Shown: one piece after another, positions 6,001-44,665 of the stretch
Position numbering within the stretch: position 1 is the first letter of the stretch
Layout of the letters: each line of letters opens with the position of its first letter
Assembly: GCA_020853525.1 (NCBI GenBank)
Contig: JADYYS010000024.1
Coordinates: 1 to 64,000, forward strand
Source: Ardenticatenales bacterium
Lineage (GTDB): Bacteria; Chloroflexota; Anaerolineae; Epilineales; Epilineaceae
DNA: 64,000 bases
Direction of reading: 5' to 3'
Program-made: the position numbers and the translations under genes
Notes under the pieces: model-generated
Told to the model about the DNA's origin: nothing
The model's database searches: none
The model's input: only the letters and a program-made list of their open reading frames with translations

Positions 6001-6115
6001 GCCGCTCGTCGCCGCCGATGCGCCGGCGGGTGCGCTGCCGCCAGCGGCCGCTCTCCCCGCCACGACCCGGCCGCGGCGCGAGGAGGCGGACGGCGAGACC
6101 GAAGGCGGACCGTGA
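2..6115 (+). CDS. giant secreted surface protein, 5'-truncated by window edge
   Basis: The reading frame is open from the first bases and the first visible domain already lacks its start, so the gene begins upstream. Visible order (residues counted from the GTG at 14): two DUF11-type repeats, each with VENLGDV and ATTFAGATSF-type signatures (about 1-150 and 150-300); a Thr/Pro/Asn stalk (about 304-435); two SdrD-B-like domains with a GxVWED..DGV.DPGEP signature (about 436-525 and 533-625); then about 1350 residues (from about 644) that are closely similar to the next gene. That last part consists of two related halves, each with GLTS/T.D.NFDG, DFDGDG..D, FLDH and KRFYVDGHEYNVVALM. The NFDG/DFDGDG stretches look like calcium-binding loops. 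DUF11 and SdrD-B domains are typical of exported adhesion or sheath proteins, so a surface location is inferred. Function of the duplicated region is unknown to me. Confidence 0.85.
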   Translation, partial: VTSTVNNGNGTYTFSYSLFVENLGDVALSGVQVVDNLAATFAGATSFGGVSAVSGDFTVNAGYNGAGDTNVLAGTDSLAVGASGTITINVTVTPGANLGPYNNQATATGTSPGGTPVNDVSDAGTDPDPDGDGNPNEPGENDPTPVTLGEAPAIGVAKSLMSNVNNGDGSFTLTYLFGVENLGDVPLANVQVTDDLATTFAGATSFSVVSVVSASLAENVGYDGSTDINLLVGTDTLAVGASGSIALVVTVTPGANLGPYDNQATATGMSPGGMLVSDVSDDGTNPDPDGDGNANEAGENDPTPVQFDAPTDTPTSTATNTPTPTNTATNTPTSTATSTATSTPTDTPTNTPTSTSTNTPTTTATPTNTSTATNTATPTDTPTNTPTNTSTNTPTNTATTTNTVTPTNTSTRTPTPTITQTPTITATPTVTRTPTPTPIPGSISGTVWEDTNGDGVIDPGEPGLAGVLVTLSNGSVTLTDGNGDYLFTMLMPGMYFVAETDLPGYASTTPNVVAVALPAGGAGTANFGDRPGVPTGGTIRGIVWEDLDRDTVRDPGEVPIPGVIVQLSNGATAVTDINGEYLFTDVPPGDYTVSETDPMGYVSTTANAVAVTVTLGSDSVIEFGDVSLDGTSRVKVFYDPADPDDIYVNRRGTANLPTIRLYGLTTVCNSVVSGEGNRRASAGSNDVVDPFTGRVPEDPPYTDPEGPFNPQSGEAPEQDFVTWDPAWISERLNDPAALAGWGCATGADEVSAHTNIRVGGVNGSEKVWLRHWYEPTHLDKDLNADDCLTNGSVPDDGRPDAPVNPQATSIDEWYPAIMTELTYMVLTNDVPQPDPAPSRLDDSAPRPACAPAGQSRIVFPVGVATAETNPAGPAVGYGLTSLDVNFDGAIDMVNVASEFTLGTDLGVTLDFDGDGVVDSIDTDGLALSCDEMVVLHTDSATIGRNQPMQFLDHYVTVQSVSSNSASLRIWYTGDLVPRLVATVSVGTGGVALAGDVGPAQVIPAGGGNLGVVPIGPWFVAVQSVDSGDGTATLTVGRALGAPCASMERLPNVANRSAGGPWFLKRFYVDGHEYNVVALMTCDADSLQYITLRAPVPKVPVTIEQHSVRLQAYGPNRALPLPPPFNHEHTVLEDVVAVASLAECPAPTAQDPSDRPDILYTGGPVGPLPPVLGAGDGGTYTGRDPLNPVGPYSLGSGAGFRSSHWLYTEEDTNPAFVGELAEKYGARRFDAQCDPNPDVPDAFFYNERIFIQPWHYTEFALPDQAAPGGGPTACDPDNYYVTSGFINPTARWRQWTMPDGPVPAQVPPTPPDLTTDATGFDPVTGTYGSPRRASFEFDPDAAEQLFTSSSGVRIYGGLPVCQDDLVCDGAASRAALQSGAGDLTVTTDVAGYPVEVPPYTDPFSVFNPQAPDAPRADSLTFNPAYLDEFRNFGEALVELYRGISNDGQNARQKVYQRAWYQPDYITKIRQTGNCDADLSFQAVVQEYTYLMMDTTDTPVAVPPGSSRLAFPMGTRANELPKPNPGGVIPAGGNFGFGLTTFDANFDGMPEPMAIESEASVNAFFDATWQANRPTIPGFPPPPVAGPVVDFDGDGVIDDLDEDCVALNGNEMAVFTVQSVTLDRDPATSHATDSVMALDHLAVLENVTPGASAQFRFYFTGGTIGSARPEPVRGIQTLSIGSVAVVDRHQSRVRILAPGSDNLGDLDGAWFLFVEDVAPSGESVTVTIGRALGGSHSAIDNGAGGHDLFPGDPWYLKRFYVDGHEYNVVALMTQPLPGTDPTDPATCNEGFAFITIRTPVPKGNYFNPQDSLFQQGYFLGGQPAQISVMPPYNVDHTIAVDVRRLPAADFQDVDTFGPCVGELAAAGPLDVRIRSEADELRFGTELRETYNDGTVEGAEARDRYGWETHQTLLTPGRFTELVVPPGQQYLLTLNWRSAHNQLLFYGCTREAPGPFDEDDPPLLTGQEIYEAAECWRQGILPPPTDWPPPFVGVPLVGDPNALPLVAADAPAGALPPAAALPATTRPRREEADGETEGGP
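926..1318 (+). repeat. Thr-Pro/Asn stalk-coding tandem repeat
   Basis: Short degenerate repeats of the type ACGCCGACGAACACG code for a TPTNT-like linker of about 130 residues between the DUF11 repeats and the SdrD-B-like domains. Such linkers act as extended, often glycosylated spacers in surface proteins. The repeat structure makes expansion and contraction likely. Confidence 0.85.
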
Positions 6116-6547
6116 CATCGTAAGGTCGCCGTCCAAGTTCGGAGGATCCCTGCCGCGGGTCGGACCGCCTTCCGAAACCACATCGAAGTCCGGATGCCCC
6201 GTGCGTGTCGACACGCACGGGGCATCCCCATTCCCGGGCCCGATGCCGGTGCCCGGGTCGCCCTGCGTCGCTTAACGCAAAGGTTACAGTATCGAACGAA
6301 GCGTAACTTCGTCGTAGTGGCAGCGGCGGTTGTCGTCGATCAACCGGGCCAGCGCCATGGTGGCTGGTCGTCGACGTGGTTGCCGGCATCGTCCCGCCGG
6401 GGCCGCTTGCCGTTCCGCGCAGACGTGGCTACGATCGGCGGTCGTCCGCTTGCGCGGTGGATCCGTCGGCCGCGCCCGAGTGTTCGCCCCAAAACAGCTG
6501 CATAGCCCGCCCCCTCCCCACGGGGCACGCCTGCAAGCGCTCTCGTC
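6116..6547. other. intergenic region between the two giant paralogues
   Basis: These 432 bases hold no convincing gene. They contain the 36-bp palindrome at 6192-6227 about 77 bases after the upstream stop, and an AT-richer patch around 6272-6320 that could hold the promoter of the next gene, including a small hairpin ACGAAG-N5-CTTCGT. I could not identify a clear -35/-10 pair. Confidence 0.5.
6192..6227. terminator. 36-bp perfect palindrome, probable terminator
   Basis: Two 18-base arms are perfectly complementary with no loop (GGATGCCCCGTGCGTGTC and its complement). It lies 77 bases after the stop of the first giant gene. A short CCCCATT follows rather than a T run, so intrinsic termination is plausible but not proven; it may equally belong to the dispersed palindromic elements seen elsewhere in the window. 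Confidence 0.45.
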
Positions 6548-9500
6548 ATGGAGTCGAGGATGTCTTGTTACCGCCGTGACCGCTCCCCCCGCCCTGTGGT
6601 CGCGTCCCGCAGCATCGTCCCGATCGCTGCAACTTCTCCCAGGCTCCAAACATGCCTGCGGCCGCATTTGGGTACCCTGCCCATCGCGCGCATCGCCCAA
6701 TCCCTCGTTGCCGTCTTCATCGTCCTCGCGGCGATGGCGCTCGGCGTGCGCTCCGGCCAGGTGCAGGCCGCTCCATCTCAATCGCCGATGGCCGCACCGG
6801 CCGCCGCCCCCGCCGCCGCCCCCGCGCAAGCCCCCCTCGCCCAATCGTCCAACCTGTCGACGCTGCGCCTCTACGGCAACACCAGCGTCTGCTCGAACTG
6901 CAACAACCCCGGCGGCAACGGCGCCGCTTCGGCGGGCGACAACGCCGTCATCGACCCGAACACGGGCAACGTGCCCGAGGACCGGCCGTACACCGATCCA
7001 CGCGGCCCGTTCAGCCCGCTGTCCGACCAAGCCCCGCCGTTCGACTACGTCACGTGGAACCCGGCCTGGATCTCGGAACGGTTGAACGATCCGGCGCTGC
7101 AGGCCGAGTGGAACTGCCTCGGCGGGCCGGACGAGATCTCGGCGGTCTCGAACATCCGAGCCGGCGGCATCAACGGCTCCGAGAAGGTCTGGCTGCGGCA
7201 CTGGTACGAGCCGACGCACCTGGACAAGGACCTGAACAGCGACGATTGCCTGACGGACAACAACCTGGACGGCATCCCGGATGCGCCGGCCAACCCGCTC
7301 CCGACGAACGCCGACGAGTGGTATCCGGCGATCATGACCGAGATGACGTACATGCTGCTCGACAACGAGCTGCCGCGCGCCAACCCCACCGGCGCCAACC
7401 TCGACGACTCCGCCCCGCGGCCGGCATGCGGCACCGCGGGCCAGACGAGCATCGTCTTCCCGGTCGGAACGTTCGACGACCAACTGAACCCGGCCGGTCC
7501 GCTGACCGGGCGCGGCCTCACGAGCCTGGACGCCAACTTCGACGGCACGCTCGACCAGGTCCGCGTCCACTCCGAGGCCACACTCGCCGCCGAGCTCGGC
7601 CTGACGATCGACTTCGACGGCGACGGCCTCGTGGACAACATCAACCCCAACGGCATCCCGCTCGACTGCGACGAGCTGGCGGTCTTCACGCTCGACACGC
7701 AGTCCATCGGCCCCGGCCAGACGTTCCAGTTCCTCGACCACTTCGTCCGCGTGCGCACCGCCGGCAGCGGCTCGGCGACGCTGGAGATCTGGTACACCGG
7801 CGACCTCGTGCCTCGCCTGATCGCCGTGCGTTCGGTCGGCGTCGGCTCGGCGGTCCTGGCCGGGGAGAACGGGCCGGTCGTCACGCCGATCGGCGCCGGC
7901 GGCAGCAATCTCGGCGTCGTGCCGCGCGGCGCGTGGTTCGTGCACGTGCTGTCGGTCGACCAGGTGGATCGCTCCGCGTCGCTCATGATCGGCCGGGCGC
8001 TCGGCGCGCCGTGCGCGTCGATGGAGAACGCGGCGAACCAGGCGAACTTCTCGGCCGGCGGCCCATACTTCCTCAAGCGCTTCTACGTCGACGGCCACGA
8101 GTACAACGTCGTCGCCCTCATGAGCTGCAGCCCCACCTCGTTCCAGTACATCACGCTGCGCGCGCCGCTGCCCAAGGTGGCGGTGACGATCGAACAGCAT
8201 TCCGTCCGCCTCGAACCGTATTCGCCCGAGGAGCCGCTCGCGCTCCCGCCGCCGTTCAACCACGAGCACACGATCCTCGAGGATGTGAACCCGCTCGACC
8301 CGTTCGACCCGTGCCCGTTCGATCCGGCCGACGGCCCGCTGCCGCGGCCCGACATCCTCTACATGGGCGGTCCGATCGGTCCCGTGCCGCCGATCATGAA
8401 CGCCGAGGATCCGCTGCCGTACTTCGGCCGCTTCCCGGACCACCCCGTCGGTCCGTACGACAGCCAGGCCGAACTGCTCGCCACGCGCTGGTTCTACACC
8501 GAGGAGACCACGAACCCGAGCTTCGTCGGCCAGCTGAAGGAAAAGGTCGGCGCCACGAACGACATCGTCGGGCCCGATCTCGGCGCCGTCGACCCGTTCT
8601 TCTACAACGAGCAGATCTTCACCCGGCCGTGGCACTACACCGAGTTCTACCTGCCCAACCAACCGGACAGCGCCGGCCTCGGCTGCGATCCCGACAACTA
8701 CTACGTCACCTCCGGCTTCACGACGCGCACCGCCCGCTACCGAACGTGGACGATGCCGGACGGCCCGGTCTCCAGCAATGTCCCGCCGTTCCCGCCGGCC
8801 GACCTGACCACCGACCTGACGGACACGCAGGGCATCATCGCCGGCGATCCGCCGACAGGCTACGGCGCCACACGCCGCGTGAGCTTCGAGTTCGATCCGG
8901 ACGACAACCGCAAGATGAGCCTGAACGGCCGCGGTGTCCGCGTGTACGGCGGGTTCGCCGCGTGCCCCGACGATTGCGGCTCGGTCCTCGACCGCCCCGG
9001 CATCGTCTTCGGTCCGGGCGACCTTGCGGCGATCACCGACACGTTCGGCGGGGCGAACTACCCGGTCGAGGTGCTGCCGTACACGGATCCGTTCGCCCCG
9101 TTCAACCCGCAGCACCCGCACGCGCCGGATGTCGATACGCTCACGTTCAACCCGAGCTATCTCGACGAGTTCCAAAACTTCGGCGAGGACCTGCGCTTCC
9201 TCTACCAGCAGATCTCCAACGACGCCCAGAACGCGCGGGAAAAGGTCTACCACCGCCTGTACTACGATCCGAACTACGTCACGAAGATCCGCGAGGCCGA
9301 CGACTGTGATCGGGACCTTGCGTTCCCAGCCGTCGTCCAGGAGTTCAGCTACGTGATGATGGACGTGTTCGACACGCCCATCGGCGTCCCGCCCGGCACG
9401 AGCCGCATGGCGTTCCCGATCGGCACCGGCGCGTCCGAGCTGCCCAAGCCGAACGCGAACGGCTCGTTGCCGGCCGGCGGCCAGTTCGGCTTCGGCCTGA

Positions 9501-12500
9501 CGAACTTCGACGCGAACTTCGACGGCGAGCAGGAAGCGGCGGTCATCCACTCCGAGCAGACCGTCAACGACTTCTTCGACACCACCTGGCAGGCGAACCG
9601 CCCGCCGCCGCCGCCCGGCTTCCCGGTGGCGCCGCTGCCCGGCCCGATCGCCGACTTCGACGGTGACGCGCTCATCGATGCGATCGATGAGGACTGCACG
9701 GCCCTGAACGGCAACGAGATGGTCGTCCTCAGCGCGCAGAGCGTCGTGATCGATGTCGACCCGGCGACGTCGGAAACCGACAGCGCGATGTTCCTCGACC
9801 ACCTCGGCACGCTCCAGAGCGTCAGCCCGGTCGGGATCATCACGATGCGCTTCTTCTTCACCGGCGGCTCGATCGCCAATGCCCGCCCGGAGCTGATCGG
9901 CGGCCCGCGCACGCTCCAGATCGGCGACCTCGTCATCGTCGACCGCTTCCAGACCAGCGTCACGGTGCTGAGCCCCGGCGACAGCAACTTCGGCCAGGTC
10001 GACGGCGCCTGGTTCCTGTTCGTCGAGGACGTGAACCCGACGCTGCGGCAGGCCACGGTCTCCGTCGGCCGTGCGCTCGGCCACACCTGGAGCGCGATCG
10101 ACAACAACGCCAGCCAGCACGATCTGACGCCCGGCGATCCGTGGTACCTCAAGCGCTTCTACGTCGACGGCCACGAGTACAACGTCGTCGCCGTCATGAC
10201 GTACGCCGGCGGCACGGTCGGGCTGTGCAACGACCTCTTCGGCTTCCTCACGATCCGAACGCCGGTGCCGAAGGGCAACTACTTCAACCCGCAGGACTCG
10301 CTCTTCCAGCAGGGCTACTTCCTCGGCGGCCAGCCGCCGCTGATGAGCGTCCTGCCGCCGTTCAACCTGCCGCACACGATTGCGACCGACATCGAGCGCC
10401 TGCCGGCGAGCGAGTTCGCGGACCAGGACCGGTTCGACAGCTGCGTCGGCACGCTGGCCGCCGCCGCACCGCTGCGGGAGACGATCATCGAGGAGACGGA
10501 CGAGACGCGCCTGCTCACCGAGTTGCGCGAGACGTACTACGACGCCGCCTCCCTGCCGTCGCTCGAGGCCGTCCGGACGCGCGACGGGTGGCAGACCCAT
10601 CAGACCGAAGTCGTTCCGCACCACTTCACCGAGGTCAACGTCCCCATTGGCCAGCAATACCTGCTGACGATGAACTGGCGCTCGCCGATCAGCCGCCTGG
10701 CCTTCTACGGCTGCACCCGCAACGCGCCGGGGCCGTTCGCCGAGGACGACATCCCCGACATCGACCACGCCGACATCCTGGCCGCCGCCAACACGTGGGC
10801 GCCGCCGTCCGGCATCATCCCGCCGGTCAACCGCCTGAACCCGCCGGCGCCGTCCGATCCGGACGCCGCCACGATCGTCCCGTACTTCGACGCCGAGTGC
10901 GATCCGGCCCTCGATGCGCGCGTCAAGATCTTCTACGACCCGGCGAACACGGACGACCCGTACATCAACCCGGTGCCGGTGACGCTGCCGTTCGTCCGGG
11001 CGAACCTCTCGGTCACCAAGACCGCCAACAACCCGTTCCCGGTGCCGGGCGCGCTCGTCATCTACACGATCAACGTCCACAACGCCGGTCCGGACGCCGC
11101 GACGGCGGTCGTCGTCGACACGCTGGAAGCCGGCCTGACCTACGTGGCCGACAGCGACACGTGCGTCCAGTCCGTGTCCGACCCGCAGCAGTACACGTGC
11201 ACCGTCGGACCGATCGCGGCGGGCGGCAACGGGGCGTTCACGCTCACGGTCCAGGTCGACCCCGGCGTGCCGGCCGGCACCGTGCTCTCGAACATCGCGA
11301 CCGCGTACGTCTCGGGCGGCTTCGACTCGACGCCCGGTGACAATACGGACATCGAGGACATCGAGGTGACCGACCCGACGCCGACGCCCACGAGCACGAG
11401 CACATCGACGCGGACGTCGACGCCGACGCGGACATCGACACCGACAAGCACCTCCACGTCCACGAGCACTTCCACATCCACGAGCACTTCCACGCCGACA
11501 CGCACGTCGACGGTCACGCCGACATCCACCCCGTCCAGCACACCGACGAACACGGCCACCCGGACGCCGACCGCGACATCGACGCGCACCGCTACGTCGA
11601 CGAGCACGCCGACGCCGTCGGACACGCCGACGAGCACGAGCACCGCCACGCGCACGTCGACGGCGACCGCGACGACGACTGCGACCTCGACGTCGACCGC
11701 CACCACGACCTCGACGTCGACGACGACCTCCACGGCGACCGCGACGGAGACGAGCACGGCCACGCGCACTTCGACTTCGACGTCGACCGCGACCTCGACC
11801 AGCACCCCGACCGCGACGGATGGCCCGTCACCGACGCCGACCGCCACCGCCACGGCCACCGCCACGGCCACGGCCACCGCCACCGCGACGGAAGGGCCGA
11901 CGTCGACCCCGACGACGACCGCGACCTCCACGACGACCTCGACAAGCACCGCGACCTCGACCAGCACCGCCAGCTCGACGGCAACGACCACAGGCACCGC
12001 GACCTCGACGGCGACGAGCACCGCCACGTCGACGATCACGCCCACGCCGACGATCACGCCCACGCCGACGGAGACGTCGACCGCGACCACGACCGCGACC
12101 GGCACGTCGACTGCGACGGCGACCACGACCGCGACGGCGACCGGCACATCGACCTCGACGTCGACCGCCACCGCCACGACGACGCCGACCGCCACGGCGA
12201 CGCCGACCGCCACGACGACGGCGACCGAGACGGCGACGGCCACGGGCACGTCGACGATCACCCCGACGCCGACGGAGACGTCGACCGCCACCGTCACGGC
12301 CACGGCCACCGAGACCGCCACCTCGACGTCGACGTCGACCTCGACGTCGACCGCCACCCAGACCTCGACCTCGACCGCCACCTCGACGGCCACCCAAACG
12401 CCGACGGTGACCGCGACCGCGACGGCGCTGCCCGACGTCGATCTCAAGCTCGACAAGGACACCCAGTTCCCGCTGCCGCAGGTCGGGAGCGAGTTCGACT

Positions 12501-14326
12501 ACACGTTCACGATCTCGAACACGGGTCCCGGCACCGCGGTGAACCTCCGACTCATCGACATCCTGTCGCCCGTCACGACCTACGTGTCGGCTTCGGCTCC
12601 TGCCAGCTGCACCGATCTCGGCAGCGGCGTCGTCAGCTGCTCGCTGCCCAACCTGCCGAACGGCGGCGACCACAGCTTCACGATCCGCGTGCTGCTCGAC
12701 CCGAACGCCGGGCCCGGTGTGTCGGTCTTCAACACCGCCATCACCTTCGCCGACAACAACGACCCGAACCAGGCCAACAACGTCGACTCCGTCCAGCGCT
12801 TCACGCTCGAGGGGTCGCCGCCGCTGGCCATGGCGTCGGACGGCGGCGACGGGCGCTGGCAGGCGGTTGCCGCGTCGAGCGATGGGCTCGCGGATGTGCT
12901 CTCCGGCGGCATGACCGCCGAGCTGAACGCACAACACGAGGCCGTGCTCGCGTGGCGCGACGCGACCCGCGTCGAGGACGCGTTCGTCATCGAGAGCCGC
13001 AGCGGCGACGGCGCATGGGTGCCGATCGCCATCGTGTCCAGCGCCACCAAGGCGGGCGTCGGTACGGTCCAGCACTGGCAGTCCAAGCCGTTGCCGCCGG
13101 GCATCCCGTACGCGTTCCGGGTCTATGCGCGCAGCAGCCGGGGCGGCCCGTGGATCGCCCTGGCCGCGGCGGAGGAGCCGCTCATGGCACCGTCCATGAC
13201 CGCGGCCGCCACCGGCTGCATCGACGGCCAGCTGCTCATGGAGGGTCGCGCGAAGCACGGCGGCGCCATTCTCAGCATCGACGGCCTGCCCGTCGGCCAG
13301 AGCGATCGGCGCGGGGCGTTCCACATCTGCGGCATGCGGCCCGGCGTCCGGACCGTCGGCGCCTGGCAGGGCGGGTACGTGCCGGCGGAGCGCGCCGTGA
13401 CCATCCAGGCCGGCGCACCGACCGAGCTGCCCGACCTCACGCTGATCGGCGGCGACATCAACCGCAACCACGAGGTCGACGTCGTCGACCTCGTGCTGGC
13501 CGGCGCGGCCGCGGGCTGGGACAGCCGAACGTTCACCCTCGACCAGGACGGCGACGGCGCGATCGATCTCGACGACGCTCGCCGGATCGCGGTGACGATG
13601 GCCGCCAACCCGGATCGCCTCTGGTCGGACGTCAACGGCGACGGCGCGATCAACCGCACCGACCTCGTCCTGGTGGGCGCCAACCTCGATCAGGCCGGTC
13701 CGACGGTCTGGGGCATGACCGCCACCTCGGTGGCGCCGGCCATGCTCGACCTCATGCTGCGCGGCGCGGGCAACGATCTGCGCTGGCTGCGCGACCCGCT
13801 GGACACCGTCGCCCCGGACGACCGCTTCAGCGTGCAGTCCACGCAGCAGGAGGACGGCAGCATCGCCATCGAGATCGTCGCGACGGGCGTCCGCGACCTG
13901 TACGGTGCGGACATCGTCCTGGGCTTCGATCCGGCCAAGGTCCGGGTGCTCGACGCCCAGCCGATCGTCCCCGGCGCGCAGGCCGAGCTCGGCGCTGTCT
14001 GGGGCGACGACAGCTTCCAGGCCATGAACGACGCCGTCCGTGCCCGCAGCCGGTGGCGCATGGTCGCGACGCGGGTCGACCCCGCCCCCGCCATCGCGGG
14101 CGAGCGCGTCGTTCTGGCCACGCTGCGGGTCGTGCCGATCGATCCGGCGGCCGAGCCGGCGGACCTCGTCGGGGCGTGGCAGCTCCAGAGCGCCCGCCTC
14201 CTCGATCGCCGCGCCCGCGACCTCGGCGCCAGCGTCAGCGGCAGCACGATCCGCGTGCCCGGCCTCGACGGACGGACGATCTGGCTGCCGGTGGTGGTGA
14301 ACAAGGAGCGGGTGGCGGGGCGGTAG
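6548..14326 (+). CDS. giant secreted multidomain surface protein with dockerin-like and cohesin-like C-terminus
   Basis: A protein of up to 2592 residues. A hydrophobic export segment (IARIAQSLVAVFIVLAAMALGV, then AxA) lies at about residues 47-75, so the true start may be downstream of the ATG at 6548; a TTG just before GTLPIARIA would give a clean signal peptide. Order: duplicated region shared with the preceding gene (about 100-1470, two halves each with KRFYVDGHEYNVV); a DUF11 domain (about 1486-1608); a Thr/Ser stalk of about 350 residues; a second DUF11 domain; a fibronectin-III-like segment; a carboxypeptidase-regulatory-like fold; two dockerin-type calcium loops (GDINRNHEVDVVDLV and DVNGDGAINRTDLV, about 2300-2390); a cohesin-like domain (about 2430-2570). 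It ends in IWLPVVVNKERVAGR. It is probably anchored or released at the cell surface. The pair with the previous gene looks like a tandem duplication with different accessory domains. Function unknown. Confidence 0.9.
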   Translation: MESRMSCYRRDRSPRPVVASRSIVPIAATSPRLQTCLRPHLGTLPIARIAQSLVAVFIVLAAMALGVRSGQVQAAPSQSPMAAPAAAPAAAPAQAPLAQSSNLSTLRLYGNTSVCSNCNNPGGNGAASAGDNAVIDPNTGNVPEDRPYTDPRGPFSPLSDQAPPFDYVTWNPAWISERLNDPALQAEWNCLGGPDEISAVSNIRAGGINGSEKVWLRHWYEPTHLDKDLNSDDCLTDNNLDGIPDAPANPLPTNADEWYPAIMTEMTYMLLDNELPRANPTGANLDDSAPRPACGTAGQTSIVFPVGTFDDQLNPAGPLTGRGLTSLDANFDGTLDQVRVHSEATLAAELGLTIDFDGDGLVDNINPNGIPLDCDELAVFTLDTQSIGPGQTFQFLDHFVRVRTAGSGSATLEIWYTGDLVPRLIAVRSVGVGSAVLAGENGPVVTPIGAGGSNLGVVPRGAWFVHVLSVDQVDRSASLMIGRALGAPCASMENAANQANFSAGGPYFLKRFYVDGHEYNVVALMSCSPTSFQYITLRAPLPKVAVTIEQHSVRLEPYSPEEPLALPPPFNHEHTILEDVNPLDPFDPCPFDPADGPLPRPDILYMGGPIGPVPPIMNAEDPLPYFGRFPDHPVGPYDSQAELLATRWFYTEETTNPSFVGQLKEKVGATNDIVGPDLGAVDPFFYNEQIFTRPWHYTEFYLPNQPDSAGLGCDPDNYYVTSGFTTRTARYRTWTMPDGPVSSNVPPFPPADLTTDLTDTQGIIAGDPPTGYGATRRVSFEFDPDDNRKMSLNGRGVRVYGGFAACPDDCGSVLDRPGIVFGPGDLAAITDTFGGANYPVEVLPYTDPFAPFNPQHPHAPDVDTLTFNPSYLDEFQNFGEDLRFLYQQISNDAQNAREKVYHRLYYDPNYVTKIREADDCDRDLAFPAVVQEFSYVMMDVFDTPIGVPPGTSRMAFPIGTGASELPKPNANGSLPAGGQFGFGLTNFDANFDGEQEAAVIHSEQTVNDFFDTTWQANRPPPPPGFPVAPLPGPIADFDGDALIDAIDEDCTALNGNEMVVLSAQSVVIDVDPATSETDSAMFLDHLGTLQSVSPVGIITMRFFFTGGSIANARPELIGGPRTLQIGDLVIVDRFQTSVTVLSPGDSNFGQVDGAWFLFVEDVNPTLRQATVSVGRALGHTWSAIDNNASQHDLTPGDPWYLKRFYVDGHEYNVVAVMTYAGGTVGLCNDLFGFLTIRTPVPKGNYFNPQDSLFQQGYFLGGQPPLMSVLPPFNLPHTIATDIERLPASEFADQDRFDSCVGTLAAAAPLRETIIEETDETRLLTELRETYYDAASLPSLEAVRTRDGWQTHQTEVVPHHFTEVNVPIGQQYLLTMNWRSPISRLAFYGCTRNAPGPFAEDDIPDIDHADILAAANTWAPPSGIIPPVNRLNPPAPSDPDAATIVPYFDAECDPALDARVKIFYDPANTDDPYINPVPVTLPFVRANLSVTKTANNPFPVPGALVIYTINVHNAGPDAATAVVVDTLEAGLTYVADSDTCVQSVSDPQQYTCTVGPIAAGGNGAFTLTVQVDPGVPAGTVLSNIATAYVSGGFDSTPGDNTDIEDIEVTDPTPTPTSTSTSTRTSTPTRTSTPTSTSTSTSTSTSTSTSTPTRTSTVTPTSTPSSTPTNTATRTPTATSTRTATSTSTPTPSDTPTSTSTATRTSTATATTTATSTSTATTTSTSTTTSTATATETSTATRTSTSTSTATSTSTPTATDGPSPTPTATATATATATATATATEGPTSTPTTTATSTTTSTSTATSTSTASSTATTTGTATSTATSTATSTITPTPTITPTPTETSTATTTATGTSTATATTTATATGTSTSTSTATATTTPTATATPTATTTATETATATGTSTITPTPTETSTATVTATATETATSTSTSTSTSTATQTSTSTATSTATQTPTVTATATALPDVDLKLDKDTQFPLPQVGSEFDYTFTISNTGPGTAVNLRLIDILSPVTTYVSASAPASCTDLGSGVVSCSLPNLPNGGDHSFTIRVLLDPNAGPGVSVFNTAITFADNNDPNQANNVDSVQRFTLEGSPPLAMASDGGDGRWQAVAASSDGLADVLSGGMTAELNAQHEAVLAWRDATRVEDAFVIESRSGDGAWVPIAIVSSATKAGVGTVQHWQSKPLPPGIPYAFRVYARSSRGGPWIALAAAEEPLMAPSMTAAATGCIDGQLLMEGRAKHGGAILSIDGLPVGQSDRRGAFHICGMRPGVRTVGAWQGGYVPAERAVTIQAGAPTELPDLTLIGGDINRNHEVDVVDLVLAGAAAGWDSRTFTLDQDGDGAIDLDDARRIAVTMAANPDRLWSDVNGDGAINRTDLVLVGANLDQAGPTVWGMTATSVAPAMLDLMLRGAGNDLRWLRDPLDTVAPDDRFSVQSTQQEDGSIAIEIVATGVRDLYGADIVLGFDPAKVRVLDAQPIVPGAQAELGAVWGDDSFQAMNDAVRARSRWRMVATRVDPAPAIAGERVVLATLRVVPIDPAAEPADLVGAWQLQSARLLDRRARDLGASVSGSTIRVPGLDGRTIWLPVVVNKERVAGR
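11374..12426 (+). repeat. Thr/Ser stalk-coding low-complexity repeat
   Basis: About 1 kb of ACC/ACG/TCG-type codons encodes a TSTST/TATAT linker of about 350 residues between two DUF11 domains. Because of the repeat pattern, other frames and the opposite strand also stay open (Val/Asp-rich and Arg-rich translations); those are artefacts. Confidence 0.9.
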
Positions 14327-37197: not shown

Positions 37198-38550
37198 TCA
37201 CGTCCACTCCTCCCGCTCTCGACCCCCGGCGCCCAGCACGCGGAGGAGGAGGTGGCGTGACACTTGCATACCAAGGAGGGTCAGCCCCAACAGGATGCCG
37301 ATGCCGGACGTGGCAAATCCTGCGATGAAGGGGCGCGCCCGGTTCATGATTGTCTCGAAGGGCAGGTCGGTCATCACCGTCAGCCAACCCTTCACCAGGC
37401 CTGCCCCGATCAAGCAGGCCCAGAATACGACGAGTGAGCCATTCAGCAGCCAGAACCCCAGCGATCGCGCCCGCGCATCGGCGCCCAATGCCACGGGATC
37501 CCCGATAATATAAGCGATGGAAGCGAACAGGATGGTGGTGTTGATACCGATGGTACTGCCCATCGCATGGGCTACTGTGATGTGTGTGCCATGTGTGAAG
37601 AGGTTCACTGCCGGTATGGAGATCAGCAGGGCAAGCGTGAGGTTGAGTACCACCCACACTTCGGAGGCGAACAGGAAGCGGTAGCTGAAGGACCGGGTAT
37701 GGAACAAGGAGGCCTCCACGGATCTGCGCCATTGGTGGATAATGCGGGCCAGCACGATCCACTCCGTCATGCTGACGACATAGGCGAGAATGCGCAGCCA
37801 GGAAGCACTGGGTACTGGATAGATATGGTGGGCCCAGCCAAAGAGCAGGTTGGTCAGGCCAAGCGAATACAGCAGGAAGGCGGACTTGGAGCGGGCTGGC
37901 GCCGTATCACCCGTGATGCGCTCCATCACGACCATCGCCGTTCCGTACACCAGCATGTTCCAGGAGCCGGTGAGTGCACCATAGGACTTCCACTGGACGG
38001 TGAGGTCGCGCACCACGTTGTCGTCCGGCTGCTGTAAGAGCCATAGATTCGACTCCAGATAGGCGAAGAGAAAGAACACGATTCCCGTGGCCCACATCCA
38101 CAGGTAAGCCGGCCAGGGAGTCCTCCTACGCAGCGCCGTCCGGAAGAAGTTCCACGTAAACAGCAGCCAGCCGATCACGATGGGGATGGCCAGCACGGGC
38201 GGGAACTCCCAATACTCACGCCCGCCGAAACGCCCCGTGAAGTAGGCGCCGACCACCAGCAGCCCTGTGACCAGAAAGATGGCCAGGTGCGCACGGACCA
38301 GGGCCGGGGAATGAAGCGGTACGCCCACCGTCTCCGGCAAGTAATGGTAGATGCCCCCTACGGCGGCCATGAAGATCCACGCGATCACCAGCGAGACATG
38401 CAGTGGCCTGGACTTTACGAAGGGCACCACATCGATCACACCGGGCACCACGTGCTGCCAGGCCCCGATCACCCCGAAGAAGGCCCCGATCCACAACGCT
38501 GCCACAGCGAACAGCAGAAACAGATGAGCGGTGGGGTCCCTACTCTCCAT
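37198..38550 (-). CDS. norB: NorB-like haem-copper oxidase subunit with altered metal-ligand residues
   Basis: A 450-residue, 12-helix protein of the NO reductase/cbb3 branch. It aligns with P. aeruginosa NorB: RPLHVSLVIAWIF (low-spin haem ligand His51), GWAHHIYPV (FeB ligands His241 and His242), SMTEW (Glu263, matching Glu280) and THGTHITVAH (haem b3 ligand His328). An ungapped alignment of helix VI places Tyr190 where the third FeB His207 should be, Thr194 for Glu211 and Asn198 for Glu215. Met330 replaces the second low-spin haem ligand His349 (AHAM instead of AHGH). The ATG overlaps the end of norC by 11 bases, so the two are coupled. Base composition is clearly less GC-rich than the neighbours, which suggests transfer. 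NO reduction is the family role; with these changes the activity is uncertain. Confidence 0.8.
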   Translation of the reverse strand: MESRDPTAHLFLLFAVAALWIGAFFGVIGAWQHVVPGVIDVVPFVKSRPLHVSLVIAWIFMAAVGGIYHYLPETVGVPLHSPALVRAHLAIFLVTGLLVVGAYFTGRFGGREYWEFPPVLAIPIVIGWLLFTWNFFRTALRRRTPWPAYLWMWATGIVFFLFAYLESNLWLLQQPDDNVVRDLTVQWKSYGALTGSWNMLVYGTAMVVMERITGDTAPARSKSAFLLYSLGLTNLLFGWAHHIYPVPSASWLRILAYVVSMTEWIVLARIIHQWRRSVEASLFHTRSFSYRFLFASEVWVVLNLTLALLISIPAVNLFTHGTHITVAHAMGSTIGINTTILFASIAYIIGDPVALGADARARSLGFWLLNGSLVVFWACLIGAGLVKGWLTVMTDLPFETIMNRARPFIAGFATSGIGILLGLTLLGMQVSRHLLLRVLGAGGREREEWT

Positions 38551-39064
38551 CGGGGATCATCTCCTTGTAGGTTCCGTACGGGGTGAGGTTCGCCGCCCTG
38601 ATGGGATAGGTTCCGGAGGCCGCCATGGCGTCAAGATAGGCCACCAAGTCATCCGCCTGCGACTTGTCCACGCCCAGATTGGGCATGCGTGCGGTGCCAT
38701 GCAGGATGAACGCCTTGGTGTACTCCGGCCCCTTCCCCTTGGCCCGTGTCACGTTGGTTAGGTCCGGACCCATGTATCCACCGAGCCCATAGAACTGATG
38801 GCACGCCGTACAGTTGAACTCCTGGTACCACTGACGGCCGCGCCGGGCCTGCTGGCTGAGTCCACCTCGCTCCGTAGGGACCGCCGTGGAGGTGGTCCAA
38901 GTAAGGACCGTTTGCACCACAAACAGCAGCACCAACACGGCGACGATCGCGCGCCGATGACGCGTAGCCCGCCACCGGATACGCTCGGAGTGGCCACCAG
39001 AGTCCGAATTCCGGAGACTCTGCAGCGCCGGGGTACTGGCGGTGAACACACCCTCTTGCTCCAT
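38540..39064 (-). CDS. norC: NorC-like membrane-anchored cytochrome c
   Basis: A 174-residue protein with one transmembrane helix (about 38-56) and a single c-type haem site CTACH (85-89) in GRQWYQEFNCTACHQFYGLGGYMGPDLTNV, typical of NorC. The likely axial Met is in GTARMPNLGV. It would donate electrons to the NorB-like subunit coded directly downstream. The N-terminus before the helix is longer than in many NorC proteins (about 37 residues). Lower GC than the surroundings, as for norB. Confidence 0.88.
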   Translation of the reverse strand: MEQEGVFTASTPALQSLRNSDSGGHSERIRWRATRHRRAIVAVLVLLFVVQTVLTWTTSTAVPTERGGLSQQARRGRQWYQEFNCTACHQFYGLGGYMGPDLTNVTRAKGKGPEYTKAFILHGTARMPNLGVDKSQADDLVAYLDAMAASGTYPIRAANLTPYGTYKEMIPDGE

Positions 39065-39419
39065 AGCACTTCACCGTTTACCTTGAAGGGCCGGCGAGAG
39101 CAGACATAATCTGTCGGTGGTTGGACCGATCGCCGTCGAGCGTTGGCGTTTCTTGAACGTGGGCGTCGAACCGACGAGCGTGAAGCTGTCGTCCCTGAAC
39201 GGTACACGCTTACGGACCATCAGGCGAACGCCCGAGCCTTCGGGAACACGTCGGCTTGGCAGTGATCTGGGCTGGATCACGATACAATCCAGCCTAGATC
39301 ACCACACAATCCAGCGTGGATCGCTACACGTTTCAGCCGGCATCAAGCGGCTCTCTTGTCCGCGCCCCGATTCACAACCCCGCGCCCCGACGGATCGGGC
39401 GCGCTCCGACGTCGAACCG
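39065..39419. other. intergenic region upstream of norC with 22-bp tandem repeats
   Basis: No gene is supported in these 355 bases. They contain an imperfect inverted repeat GACA-N5-TGTC near 39104-39116 (about 40 bases upstream of norC) and the tandem repeat at 39273-39338. Base composition changes from lower GC near norC to the window average by about 39350, so one edge of the transferred segment probably lies here. Confidence 0.5.
39273..39338. repeat. three 22-bp tandem repeats
   Basis: Units 39273-39294, 39295-39316 and 39317-39338 share the pattern TGGATCACNAYACAATCCAGCC; the first two match at 18 of 22 positions, the third is more diverged. Each unit has the dyad GGAT...ATCC. They could be protein-binding sites or the edge of a former element. 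Confidence 0.65.
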
Positions 39420-42400
39420 CTAACGTTCGACCGGCGCCTCGACGCGCACCCCGACGGCCTCCATGCGGCCATCGAGCCACCGCTCGCCGGCGGCATCGGG
39501 CCACGGGCGGCCGATCGGGCCGCCGAAGTTCCGCCACATCCGCGGCACGTCGGCGCTGTCGACCGCACGCGCGCGCACGATCGGCGTCGCGACGCGCAGC
39601 GCTCCGTCCGCGTCCAGCGCCGCCAGCCCCGCCCGCCGGTTGCTGTACCCCAGCGGCAGGTAAAGCGTGCGCCCGTCGCGTTCGTTCGGTCCCGGACCGG
39701 CTGGCGTCTCGAAGTCGGCCGTCTGGTCGATGATCTGGTGGCCGTCGGCCGTCGGCAGGACGATCCGCACCGCGGCCACGTCGCCCATCGCCCAGCCGCC
39801 GCGCGGCGGGACGTCGGCGGCGCCGAAGCGGAAGGCGCCGGTGCTGTCGGCCGTGCGGGCGATGGCGTACACCGCGCCGCTCCGCAGCCGCAGCACCACC
39901 TGCACCGTCCGCCCGGCCGGCGCCGTGCCGACGAGGTCCGTCGCGCCCGGCGACCAGTCGAACGCGAGCGGTTCGACGGGCACGACGGGCGACTCGGCGG
40001 GCGCCTGCAGCGTCACCGTGTCGCCGGCACGCATCGTCACCGCGCTGCCGGCGGCGTCCTTCACGCGGACATCGAACCGGCCCGACGCATCCGCCTTGCC
40101 CGTCCCCCGGCCGCGCTCCGTGCCGTCGGCCGCCTTCACGATCACGGTGACGTCGTCCAGCGGGTTCGCGTTCCCGGCCGTGCGGTCCGTGTGGATGTAG
40201 ACCTGCGCCAGGGCGCGGTAGACGTGGCGGAAGATGCGGTGGTCGTTCGGCGCGTACAGCGCGATCTCGATGCCCGTGCCCGGCGCGCCGAGATCGCCCG
40301 GGATGCCGGTCTGCAGTGCGCCGTCCGCGCCGGTCCGCTGCGGGAAGGCGAACTGGACGTTCACGTTCAGGATGCCGGCCGGCACCTGCGCCGCGCACGG
40401 CACGGCCGGCTGGACGAAGAACGTCGTGCCGGCCGGGCCGGTCCCGCGCACCTGGCGCGTCTGCCAGTCGACCTGCAGGTCCAGCGTCGGCAGCACGACG
40501 TCGGCCGTCGTCGCGCCGAGCTTCGCCTTGTCCGTGTGGCCGGCCGCCGAGGCGACGGCCGTGCCCGCCGTGTCGCGCAGCACGGTGCTGAAGAAGCCGT
40601 CGTAGCGCGCCTTCCCCTTGGCGCCGGCCAGCGTGCGGCCGCCGGCGTCGACGAGGTCGACCGCCACATCGTTGCGCACCTCGCCGAAGCCGCACGCGGT
40701 CGGACCGCTGTGCTCGGCGTTCAGAATCGGCACGGTGTGCGAGCGGACGACGTAGTGCCCGGCGGCGGGACGGTAGAGCGCGATCACCCGCGTCCCCGGC
40801 CGGACGTCGACGCGGGGCACGAAGTCGGCGGCGTACGTGCCGTTGGCCTCGACCGCCGGCCACGCCTGGAAGAAGCCGATCGATCCCGACCGCCCGTAGG
40901 CATTCAGCGCCAGCAGCGTCAGCGAGCCGCCCGTCGTCGCCCGTCCCTGAATCGCGTCCGTGGCGACGGCGGCCTGCACCGTCAGGTCCGGCAGCGTGAT
41001 CGTCAACGGGTCGACGTTCGGGTCGCCCGGCGTCACCGTGAGGACGTCGCCCATCTGGAGGACGACGGGCGCGCCGGCGCCGTCCGTGAACGCCACCGCC
41101 AGCGCGCCGCTCGCGTCGGCGGTCGTCTGCTCGTCGTCGAGCGTCCGGCCGCCGCGCTTCAGCGTCACCGTCGCCCGCACGCCCGGCGAGAGCGATGCCA
41201 TCACGAACGCCTGATCGGCATCGATGAGCATGCCGGGCGCGATCGTCGTGTTCAGGACGAGGTGCCCGCCGACGTTCGTCGACAGGAGGACGAAGTCGCC
41301 GAACTTCACGTCCCACGTGCCGGCGAAGCTGTGGCTGAAGTTGCCGGCCGCGTCCGCCGTGGCATCCGCTGTGGCCGCGATCCCGCCGCTCTGGTCGCCG
41401 GCGATCTGGAGCGTCACCTTGTTGTCGGGCAGCGTGTGGCCGTTGATGGTGTCGGTCTGGACGAACACCACGGCGTCGAGCGGCGGGATCACGAGCTCGA
41501 ACGCTTCGTCGCCGGCCGTGAACTTGAGCGTGTCGCCCGGCTGCATCGTGATCGGCGTGCCGGTCGTGTCGGTGAGCTGCAGGAAGAACTGCGGCTGGGC
41601 ACCGCTGACCGGTCCGATGAACAGGCCGTTGCCGCCGAACACCACCCCGTCGGCGCGGCCGATCAGCTTGCTGTCCGGCGTGTAGAGCTCGGCCGCGACC
41701 GTCCGGCCCAGCGGGCCGTTGCCGATGACGAAGTTGGATTGGAACGTGTTGCCGCCGTTGACGGTCAGCTGGATGGCCGCCCAGGTGGTGTAGAACTCGG
41801 CGCCCTCGCTCACGCTGACGAAGACGGTGCCGTTCGCCGGCCGCGCCAGGTCGACGGACGGCGCGGTCGCGGCCTGGTACATCCCCGATGCGTTCGAAAC
41901 CGCGGTGAACGAAGGCGCGCCGGCGGCGGTCTCGACGCGCACGCGCACCGCGGCACCGGCCGGCGCCTCGCCGCTCACCGTGTCCGCCGCGACGTCCGTC
42001 CGCGCCGTGAGCGTCGGCACGCGCAGCACGTCCGGATCGCCGTCGACGAACGCGATCTCGATCGCGTCGCCCGGCACGGGCGCCGGGCCGAAGCCGCCGC
42101 CGAAGAGGTTGTACTGCCCCTGGTCGTTCACGAACGTGCGCTGCTGCGTCTTGATGGTGCCGGCGCTGCTGCGGAGCGTAACCGTTACGACCTGGCCCGG
42201 CTCGGCGCGGCCCTGGCCGGCCAGGAAGCCGACGGCGGCGCGCACCTTGCGGACGACGGCCACCGCCAGCACCCGCGCGCCGGGGGCGGCCTCGTACGAG
42301 GCGCGGACGCGCCAGCCGGCGCCGAGGTCGAGCTGGCCGCTGAGCGGGAGGGCGTACGCCCCGGCGCCATCCGTCGTGGCGCTGTAGCTGCCGCTGCGGC

Positions 42401-43409
42401 CGTCCATGTCGTCGGCGTTGAGCGTAACCATCGTCGCGGCCGGGCCGGTGCCGGAGACCGCGTCGGCGGCCGGGTCGAGGACGACGGTGAGGGCGGCCAG
42501 CGTGGCGGTGAGCGTCTCATCGGAGCCGGCGGGGCCGCCCGTCGTCCGGATCGTCACGACCTGTCCTGCGGCAAGCGGCTGAGGCGGAACGGATGGGGCG
42601 CCCTGGCCGAGCACGGAGAGGACGAACGTCGCGCCGCCCGTCACCGCGGTCGGTGGAATCGTCTGCGTCGTGCCGTCCGTGCGGCTGATCTCCGCCGAAA
42701 CGAGCGCCCCCGCGGGGGCCTGGCCGCGGATGGCGTACGCCCCAAGCGTCATCTGGGCGCCGAGCGCCGCGAACTGGGTGACGAAGCGGTGATTCTCGGC
42801 CGTCGTCAGGCTGACCGTGCCCGCGACGGCGCCCGCCCGGAGGTCGGCCTCGCCGCCGAGCGCCACGGCAAACGCACCGCCGGCGTCGGCGGTGGCGGTG
42901 CGTTCGATCGTCGCCGCACCGGCGCCGCCCGTCACGATCGACAGGGCGAGCTGCGCTCCGGCCGGCGCCGTGCCGAACACGCGATCACCGGCGACGTCGA
43001 CGGCGGCCGCGAGGGCCGGCACGGTGACGCGCAGCGGCTTGCCGCCGGAGCGGGAGAGCATCAGCGCGTCGCCCGGCCGGATCACGCCGCCGCCCAGAAG
43101 GAACTGAACGGTCGCCACGCCGTCGGTGCCGGCGACGCCGAGCCCTTCGTCCTTCTTCACCCCGTCCGCGCCGACGAGCTCGGCGTTGACGGCGGTCTGC
43201 GGGACGGTCCGGTACGTCAGGGTGGTGCCGTGGAGCGGCACGACGAGCTCGGGTGCCGTCTGCGCGTTGGCCGTGCGCGCGCTGGGCGCGAGCGGCCAAC
43301 GCGTGGCCAGCGTCGCGGCGGCCGGGCTGAGGCACAGTCCGGACAACAAGCCGAACAAGACGAGCAATGCGATCGGGCGGACGGGTGTGAACCGACGGCG
43401 GGCAGGCAT
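39420..43409 (-). CDS. large secreted protein of tandem Ig-like repeats
   Basis: A 1329-residue protein. The ATG at 43409 has GAGGA upstream and starts a signal peptide (RPIALLVLFGLLSGLCLSPAAA, then NAQTAP). The rest is about a dozen repeats of 85-110 residues with the pattern D.V.GTAPAGA.V.L..., ADA.G.F...L....DL..G..V.V, which resembles carboxypeptidase-regulatory or invasin-like Ig folds. Near the C-terminus, GRTLYLPLGYSNRRAG introduces a last unrelated segment with PRMWRNFGGPIGRPWPDAAGERW. No transmembrane helix or sortase signal. Likely a surface or extracellular structural protein; partner unknown. It is divergent from prs. Confidence 0.85.
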   Translation of the reverse strand: MPARRRFTPVRPIALLVLFGLLSGLCLSPAAATLATRWPLAPSARTANAQTAPELVVPLHGTTLTYRTVPQTAVNAELVGADGVKKDEGLGVAGTDGVATVQFLLGGGVIRPGDALMLSRSGGKPLRVTVPALAAAVDVAGDRVFGTAPAGAQLALSIVTGGAGAATIERTATADAGGAFAVALGGEADLRAGAVAGTVSLTTAENHRFVTQFAALGAQMTLGAYAIRGQAPAGALVSAEISRTDGTTQTIPPTAVTGGATFVLSVLGQGAPSVPPQPLAAGQVVTIRTTGGPAGSDETLTATLAALTVVLDPAADAVSGTGPAATMVTLNADDMDGRSGSYSATTDGAGAYALPLSGQLDLGAGWRVRASYEAAPGARVLAVAVVRKVRAAVGFLAGQGRAEPGQVVTVTLRSSAGTIKTQQRTFVNDQGQYNLFGGGFGPAPVPGDAIEIAFVDGDPDVLRVPTLTARTDVAADTVSGEAPAGAAVRVRVETAAGAPSFTAVSNASGMYQAATAPSVDLARPANGTVFVSVSEGAEFYTTWAAIQLTVNGGNTFQSNFVIGNGPLGRTVAAELYTPDSKLIGRADGVVFGGNGLFIGPVSGAQPQFFLQLTDTTGTPITMQPGDTLKFTAGDEAFELVIPPLDAVVFVQTDTINGHTLPDNKVTLQIAGDQSGGIAATADATADAAGNFSHSFAGTWDVKFGDFVLLSTNVGGHLVLNTTIAPGMLIDADQAFVMASLSPGVRATVTLKRGGRTLDDEQTTADASGALAVAFTDGAGAPVVLQMGDVLTVTPGDPNVDPLTITLPDLTVQAAVATDAIQGRATTGGSLTLLALNAYGRSGSIGFFQAWPAVEANGTYAADFVPRVDVRPGTRVIALYRPAAGHYVVRSHTVPILNAEHSGPTACGFGEVRNDVAVDLVDAGGRTLAGAKGKARYDGFFSTVLRDTAGTAVASAAGHTDKAKLGATTADVVLPTLDLQVDWQTRQVRGTGPAGTTFFVQPAVPCAAQVPAGILNVNVQFAFPQRTGADGALQTGIPGDLGAPGTGIEIALYAPNDHRIFRHVYRALAQVYIHTDRTAGNANPLDDVTVIVKAADGTERGRGTGKADASGRFDVRVKDAAGSAVTMRAGDTVTLQAPAESPVVPVEPLAFDWSPGATDLVGTAPAGRTVQVVLRLRSGAVYAIARTADSTGAFRFGAADVPPRGGWAMGDVAAVRIVLPTADGHQIIDQTADFETPAGPGPNERDGRTLYLPLGYSNRRAGLAALDADGALRVATPIVRARAVDSADVPRMWRNFGGPIGRPWPDAAGERWLDGRMEAVGVRVEAPVER

Positions 43410-43430
43410 GGCGGAATTCCTCGTGAGATG

Positions 43431-43478
43431 GATGGGCAGGTGGGTGGGCAGGTGGATGAGCAGGTCGGTGGGCAGGTG
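43431..43478. repeat. 12-bp tandem repeats upstream of the Ig-repeat gene
   Basis: Four units of the type GRTGGGCAGGTG (43431-43442, 43443-43454, 43455-43466, 43467-43478), with two more degenerate copies up to 43504. They lie 22 to 95 bases upstream of the ATG of the minus-strand gene, so copy number could alter its leader. Confidence 0.75.
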
Positions 43479-43690
43479 GCACGGGTGGATGGCATGGGCA
43501 GGTGGACCGGGCGGGACGTACGCGGTTCGCCGCCGCACGGTTGCGCGCGTGCGCCACAGGGTTGGACGTCGGGACGGGGAGCGATGATTACATGCCGGCG
43601 GCGGGCTCGATGGCCGCACCTTGGCCCGTCCCCGCCCTTTGAGGCACCATACGCCCCCTGCCGGGCGCGCCCATCCGATGGAGTCGGACG

Positions 43691-44665
43691 ATGACCCCTG
43701 CCGAAGCACCGACCGACCTGCTGTACGGCCGCCTCATCCTGTGCTCGGGCACCGCCAACCAGCCGTTGGCCGCCGAGATCGCGGCCTATCTGAAGACGGC
43801 GCTCCATCCGGTCGAGATCCGACAGTTCGCGAACTCGAACACGTTCGTCCGGCTGGACAAGTCGGTCCGCGGCTGCGATGTATTCTGGGTGCAGCCGACG
43901 AGCGCGCCGGCGAACGACAACCTGATGGAGCTCCTGATCGCCATCGACTGCCTGCGCCGCGACTCGGCCGGGCGGATCACGGCCGTCGTGCCGTACTACG
44001 GCTACGGGCGCTCCGACAAGAAGGACCAGCCGCGCGTCCCGATCACGGCGCGCCTGGTGGCCGACATGCTGACGACCGCCGGCGCCGACCGCGTCCTGAC
44101 GATGGACCTGCATGCCGGCCAGATCCAGGGCTTCTTCCACATCCCGGTGGACGACATCACCGCCCGTCACCACCTGGCCGACTGGGTGAAGCGTTCCGAC
44201 ATCACGGACGGCGTCGTCCTCTCGCCCGACCTGGGCCACGCCAAGGACGCGCGCTACTTCGCGGACGAGGTGGACATGCCGCTCGCGCTCGTCGAGAAGC
44301 GGCGCAGCAAGGACGGCGGCAACACCGAGGCACTCAACCTCATCGGCGAGGTCGAGGGCAAGGACGTCCTGATCGTCGACGAGGAGATCGATACCGCCGG
44401 CACGATGGTCCACGCCGCCGAGTTCGCGATCCAGCGCGGCGCGAAGCGCGTGTACGCCTTGGCCACGCACGCCATCCTCTCCCCGCCGGCCATCGAGCGG
44501 CTGCGGTCGTCGCCGTTCGAGCGCGTCGTCGTCACCAACAGCTGCTACCTGCCGCCCGAGAAGCACCTGCCGTGCATCGAGGTGCTGCCGATCGGTGCGC
44601 TCCTGGGCGAGGTCATCCACCGAATCCACACCGGCCAGTCCGTCGGTGCGATGTTCAACGAGTAG
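43691..44665 (+). CDS. prs: ribose-phosphate pyrophosphokinase (PRPP synthetase)
   Basis: A 324-residue protein with the family order: LCSGTANQPLAAEIAAYL, RQFANSNTFVRLDKSVRG, QPTSAPANDNLMELLIAIDCLRR, PYYGYGRSDKKDQPRVPITARLVADML, DLHAGQIQGFF and the PRPP loop LIVDEEIDTAGTM. It makes PRPP from ribose 5-phosphate and ATP for nucleotide, histidine and tryptophan synthesis. The PRPP loop has Glu-Glu where class I enzymes usually have Asp-Met or similar, and the catalytic loop reads KRRSKDGGNTEALN. GGAG lies seven bases before the ATG. The stop TAG is fused to a palindromic repeat. Confidence 0.95.
   Translation: MTPAEAPTDLLYGRLILCSGTANQPLAAEIAAYLKTALHPVEIRQFANSNTFVRLDKSVRGCDVFWVQPTSAPANDNLMELLIAIDCLRRDSAGRITAVVPYYGYGRSDKKDQPRVPITARLVADMLTTAGADRVLTMDLHAGQIQGFFHIPVDDITARHHLADWVKRSDITDGVVLSPDLGHAKDARYFADEVDMPLALVEKRRSKDGGNTEALNLIGEVEGKDVLIVDEEIDTAGTMVHAAEFAIQRGAKRVYALATHAILSPPAIERLRSSPFERVVVTNSCYLPPEKHLPCIEVLPIGALLGEVIHRIHTGQSVGAMFNE

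Follow-up and report, generated by a model that had tools for sequence, protein, structure and literature searches.

What does a nitric oxide (NO) reductase-like gene pair do when its catalytic subunit lacks several of the metal ligands of the known enzymes? The question is raised by two genes resembling norC and norB of the cytochrome c-dependent NO reductases (cNORs), found in a 64,000-nucleotide window (the whole stretch of DNA analyzed here: positions 1 to 64,000 of contig JADYYS010000024.1, Ardenticatenales bacterium assembly GCA_020853525.1, phylum Chloroflexota). We find that the norB-like protein belongs to a conserved clade of haem-copper proteins that spans four phyla and lies outside cNOR. 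The function we favor, with a probability of about 0.5 given its sequence and gene context, is that of a cytochrome c-fed membrane enzyme that would consume NO, most likely reducing it to nitrous oxide (N2O). The gene pair, whose open reading frames (ORFs) overlap by 11 bp, and the codons discussed below (positions calculated from the gene coordinates) are as follows.

37198-38550, minus strand: norB-like gene, 450 aa, about 12 transmembrane helices, haem-copper-superfamily subunit, ORF intact; predicted ligands H51 (haem b), H241/H242 and E263 (non-haem metal) and H328 (haem b3)
38540-39064, minus strand: norC-like gene, 174 aa, membrane-anchored monohaem cytochrome c, ORF intact
37981-37983, minus strand: Tyr190 codon, aligned with the FeB ligand His207; differs among family members but is never His
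37825-37830, minus strand: His241-His242 codons (cNOR His258-His259), invariant predicted ligands of the non-haem metal
37762-37764, minus strand: Glu263 codon (cNOR Glu280), invariant, putative carboxylate ligand of the non-haem metal
37561-37563, minus strand: Met330 codon, at the position of the low-spin haem ligand His349

Among PDB chains searched with phmmer, cNOR NorB subunits are the only significant relatives of the norB-like protein (4xyd_A, E value 1e-12; 3o0r_B, 9e-12), and the best relative of the norC-like protein is the cNOR NorC chain 3o0r_C (6e-8). The norC-like haem site, CTACHQFYGLGGYMGPDLTN (CTACH), is accompanied by a distal Met (RMPN), as expected of a normal NorC. In the FeB region, the phmmer alignment pairs Y190 with His207, T194 with Glu211, N198 with Glu215, H241-H242 with His258-His259, and E263 with Glu280; in helix X, H328 pairs with His347 and M330 with His349. 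The helix VI register is fixed, since T-G-x-W-N in the norB-like protein anchors it against E-G-x-W-E. The original prediction, made by a model from the sequence alone, had assigned the same residues (one FeB His and two Glu replaced, the His pair, Glu280 and the haem b3 His kept, and the low-spin haem His exchanged for Met) and had described the NorC haem site as normal; all of these assignments are reproduced here. An AlphaFold2 model built from 21 family sequences (predicted local distance difference test score, 82.5; predicted template-modeling [TM] score, 0.86) most closely matches NorB of 3o0r and 4xyd, followed by CcoN of cbb3 oxidases (TM score, approximately 0.8). Together with a Pfam COX1 score of 96.7 bits, these matches identify a COX1 fold with about 12 transmembrane helices, although general models label the protein only as COX1/ccoN-like.

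The substitutions are a property of the family. Across 44 aligned family sequences (41 distinct, with three duplicates), R48, H51, E112 (the Ca-site Glu), E166, Q186, W187, N198, N234, H241, H242, E263, H320, H328, and M330 are invariant. Hence Asn always occupies the place of Glu215, and Met always that of the low-spin haem His. Position 194 is V, T, or I and never Glu, while position 190 takes seven residues (Y/N/T/C/G/A/S) and is never His. Neither helix VI nor the part of helix X that follows H328 contains a conserved replacement His, and no homologue among the 44 carries the canonical His at position 190 or 330; two observations that could have overturned the original prediction, a homologue with the canonical ligands or an alternative alignment supplying other His residues, were thus looked for in this set and not found. 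Of Tyr190 and Met330, the two residues by which it proposed to search for homologues, Met330 is universal and Tyr190 is not conserved. We accordingly reject Tyr190 as a new FeB or other metal ligand, given the variability of its position. On the evidence of the alignment, chance is excluded as the cause of the ligand substitutions. The six-His set (three at CuB/FeB, two at the low-spin haem, one at the high-spin haem) is regarded as the superfamily signature (PMC3413370), and the family holds four of the six in every sequence; membership in the haem-copper superfamily stands by fold and descent, whereas the six-His signature does not. Coding sequences show dN/dS values of approximately 0.11 to 0.25; for the window pair, dS is close to saturation. 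These values, and residues invariant over four phyla, point to a retained metalloprotein and not to decay.

How does the family compare with known enzymes? It shares with cNOR (3o0r of Pseudomonas aeruginosa and 4xyd of R. denitrificans) the NorC-NorB gene pair, the fold (TM score, approximately 0.8), the CxxCH and Met of NorC, the haem b His and the Arg of helix II, the haem b3 His, the His pair, Glu280, and the Ca-site Glu. It differs in lacking His207, in having V/T/I for Glu211 and Asn for Glu215, and in the change from His349 to Met; an adjacent NorC-type haem c subunit is present, while the His207/His258/His259/Glu211 set is incomplete, as is the bis-His ligation of low-spin haem b (His60 and His349), of which only H51 is kept. 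Family members form a separate clade at 21 to 26% identity to cNOR, and NorQ is absent from 23 of 26 carrier genomes. The quinol-dependent NO reductases (qNORs) and NO dismutases (NODs) are likewise part of the NO reductase (NOR) side of the superfamily, and NOD too has lost one FeB His; however, each consists of one fused chain that lacks haem c, and each retains His207, Glu211, and a bis-His haem b. The NOD signature (FeB His to Asn and active-site Glu to Gln in a fused qNOR-type chain; PMC3413370) is not found in the family. CcoN of the C-type (cbb3) oxidases resembles it in fold (TM score, approximately 0.8) and by weak profile similarity, but has three CuB His, bis-His haem b, and the helix VII Tyr, none of which is complete in the family. 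As judged from residues and the tree, identity with cNOR, qNOR, NOD, or CcoN is excluded. The eNOR, bNOR, sNOR, gNOR, and nNOR enzymes share the context of NO metabolism, and eNOR-like genes occur in two carriers, but all five are akin to B-family oxygen reductases (PMC11388526), with a cupredoxin as the second subunit of eNOR, sNOR, and gNOR (PMC8756737), whereas the family lies on the C/cNOR side and has a cytochrome c subunit. Identity with these five is excluded by that published kinship, as the family aligns with cNOR and C-family proteins and groups with them in a tree of cNOR, qNOR, NOD-like, and C-family sequences.

In a maximum-likelihood tree of 36 rows with C-family proteins as the outgroup, the family is recovered as a single clade (100/100), next to one that unites cNOR, qNOR, and NOD-like proteins (100/100), and thus falls outside cNOR; the joining branches are long, so its exact depth is uncertain. 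This agrees with the earlier view of a distinct haem-copper enzyme. The window sequence groups with Flavobacteriales loci L013 to L015 (100/100, approximately 66% identity; L, G, and C numbers are our handles for loci, genomes, and contigs) and not with L009 (30%), a relative from its own GTDB family. The G+C content of the norB-like and norC-like genes is 61% and 63%, versus 73 to 74% in flanking genes, and at third codon positions it is 0.80 and 0.78 versus 0.93. Since grouping and composition agree, acquisition of the pair by transfer from a Flavobacteriales-like source, as judged from sequence, is well supported. The original prediction had also proposed a transfer; it placed the genes in a lower-GC island, which is right as to composition and generous as to extent, the stretch being essentially the two genes.

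The family is widespread. A two-row profile of the window protein and L009 (30 to 33% identical) recovered 20 loci from genome contigs of Flavobacteriales (up to 68% identity), other Bacteroidota, a Gammaproteobacterium metagenome-assembled genome (MAG), Planctomycetota, and an Anaerolineae MAG, the last being the same sequence as L009's contig and representing one other Chloroflexota genome. With a 21-row profile, carriers comprise 8 of 396 sampled Bacteroidota and 26 of 392 Planctomycetota; in the former sample, the 8 members (two of them partial) score at least 173 bits and all other haem-copper proteins at most 72. No homologue was found in viral contigs, and among the plasmid matches listed there were only distant NorB-type proteins (approximately 25% identity). 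A second CxxCH domain makes the NorC-like subunit probably dihaem in planctomycete and Anaerolineae members (L009 2745-3632, L028, L029, L030, and L031).

What links the family to NO is its company. Of 21 carriers, 13, the window's genome among them (contig C11), have the nitrous-oxide reductase gene nosZ, as do all eight carriers of the Bacteroidota sample, against 130 of 396 genomes (33%) overall; the hypergeometric P value, which ignores phylogeny, is 1.2e-4 and becomes 0.003 when the three genomes that went into the profile are left out. In Phycisphaerales, family genes lie approximately 3 kb from a Sec-type nosZ. In G831, the pair lies approximately 11 kb downstream of nosZ in the run nosZ, nosL, nosD, ATPase, permease, ric-type gene (ScdA_N plus hemerythrin), ribonucleotide-reductase-like gene, Rrf2, nadA, nadB, norC-like, norB-like; in G456, a qNOR gene takes a comparable place (nosZ-cytochrome c-qNOR-ric-Rrf2). 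L013 reads nosY-like, ribonucleotide-reductase-like, MarR-like regulator, norCB-like pair, nadA, nadB (labels assigned by eye). At least nine nosZ-bearing carriers (G447, G449, G458 to G461, G463, G831, and G754), most of them MAGs, yielded no other NOR-like haem-copper protein, the type of some NOR-like proteins having been read from score and length and not from residues. Full-length NirK or NirS scoring above the cut-off was found in only 4 of the 26 carriers. Since 44% of clade II nosZ genomes lack a recognized nor gene (Graf et al., PMC4250227), the family may fill part of this gap. Context and co-occurrence thus point to NO/N2O metabolism, consistent with the NO-related role that had been suggested for the window protein.

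Read from sequence, the metal, its ligands, the haem ligation, the substrate, and the product would fit the following scheme. Electrons would pass from a periplasmic donor to the haem c of the NorC-like subunit, on to a low-spin haem b (His51/Met330), and then to haem b3 (His328), which would face a non-haem metal held by His241, His242, and probably Glu263 (two-His/one-carboxylate); N198 would lie close by. In canonical NORs, the metal is ligated by (His)3 or (His)3-Glu, and a Glu stands in the second sphere (PMC10256718). Of the two carboxylates, the family retains only the second-sphere one, Glu263, which is why it is proposed as a ligand; this is the weakest step of the mechanism. cNOR requires NorQD for FeB insertion and qNOR does not (PMC9976466). 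No norQ or norD was found in the family loci examined, and NorQ is confined to the three carriers with a cNOR or cNOR-like gene, beside which it lies where checked. The likely role of the enzyme would be to hold down NO in the vicinity of nitrous-oxide reductase, chiefly in N2O reducers that do not make NO from nitrite.

Several observations weigh against NO reduction by the family. The family lacks the third FeB His and also Glu211, a residue that canonical NORs conserve and that is described as essential to them, so turnover may be slow or different. Recognized NORs coexist with the family (qNOR in G451, G453, G454, and G456; cNOR in G452), as do eNOR-like (G000 and G455) and NOD-like proteins (G847, G462, and G464). 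No nosZ match was found in G446, G450, G452, G455, G457, G462, G464, or G465, pair and nosZ are on different contigs in the window's genome, and the co-occurrence counts take no account of phylogeny and come mostly from incomplete MAGs. The family is therefore not simply a substitute NOR in every host; a division of labor by NO level, or a different reaction, is possible.

A different reaction on NO or another small molecule (NO dismutation, NO oxidation, or low-rate oxygen reduction) would suit an active site unlike that of every NOR compared, and NOD-like genes accompany the family in G847, where one is divergently transcribed from the adjoining norCB-like pair, and in two planctomycete carriers. 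We nevertheless consider it rather unlikely. NODs, which have also lost one FeB His, lost another one (PMC3413370): in NOD-like proteins, Asn replaces the pair's second His and Gln replaces Glu280, two residues that the family keeps; moreover, the helix VII Tyr of C-type oxygen reductases is missing, and NO removal fits the nosZ linkage. Loss of Glu211 and the third His, the coexisting NORs, and Rrf2, Crp/Fnr, or MarR-type regulators nearby could also speak for a protein that keeps haems b and b3 and has lost NOR activity, binding or sensing NO without turnover or serving as an electron shunt. This seems improbable, given that the loci examined retain a NorC partner with CxxCH and Met, implying electron delivery, that the His pair and Glu263 are invariant, and that no signaling domain is attached.

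The loss of two superfamily-defining histidines might be taken for decay, but a nonfunctional paralogue is very hard to reconcile with an intact operon, purifying selection, residues invariant over four phyla, and horizontal transfer. That errors of alignment or sequencing at the ligand positions disguise an ordinary cNOR is scarcely credible, though the protein's COX1/ccoN-like annotation by general models might let one think so: identical substitutions recur in 44 sequences from many assemblies, no conserved His appears elsewhere in helix VI or after H328, and the separate clade and the Bacteroidota score gap refute it.

For NO reduction by the family, the fuller form of the proposal is a third NO-reducing lineage on the cNOR/C-family side, cytochrome c-fed, with a two-His/one-Glu metal and a His/Met haem b, accounting for some of the NORs "missing" from clade II N2O reducers among Bacteroidota and Planctomycetota; this we hold tentatively, at somewhat less than even odds. 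A conserved and widespread clade with four of the six His would show that a smaller metal site, with a different haem for electron entry, may be enough for NO (or related) chemistry, and would offer a natural way to probe the purpose of Glu211 and the third His. The handling of NO by many N2O reducers without a recognized NOR may find its explanation here as well, a point that matters for predicting N2O sinks; standard annotation names these proteins cbb3 oxidase subunits or COX1. The family is distinct and apparently, if provisionally, new to the literature: a search found no description of it, which is weak evidence of novelty with the main survey of NOR diversity (PNAS 2024, 10.1073/pnas.2316422121) outside its scope.

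Some further observations concern neighboring and related genes. Strict-form FNR-type palindromes were not found upstream of norC-like genes, and we claim no common regulator motif; in the window, a possible regulatory site lies approximately 210 to 265 bp upstream of the norC-like gene.

39275-39329, no strand: 22-bp repeat in 2.5 imperfect copies (GATCACCACACAATCCAGCCTA)

The norCB-like pair repeatedly adjoins nadA-nadB near a ribonucleotide-reductase-like gene (L013, L014, and L116), as if NO- or oxygen-sensitive steps were coregulated. NO-dismutase-like proteins (HH to HN, Glu to Gln) are encoded at L119 10375-12681 (G847, Bacteroidota), L112 1026-3494 (G462), and L113 340-2865 (G464; both Planctomycetota); since NCBIfam assigns no family to NOD-like and qNOR-like chains, these were labeled from signature residues and their place in the tree. 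An eNOR-like subunit (GH..QQ in helix VI) is encoded in the window's genome (G000:C46:76604-77911, L003), and another in the Gammaproteobacterium MAG (L022 7942-9654), 2 to 3 kb downstream of the family gene and with a cupredoxin-type subunit. Finally, the window also contains very long surface-type ORFs (2037, 2592, and 1429 aa) at 2-14326 and 39420-43709.
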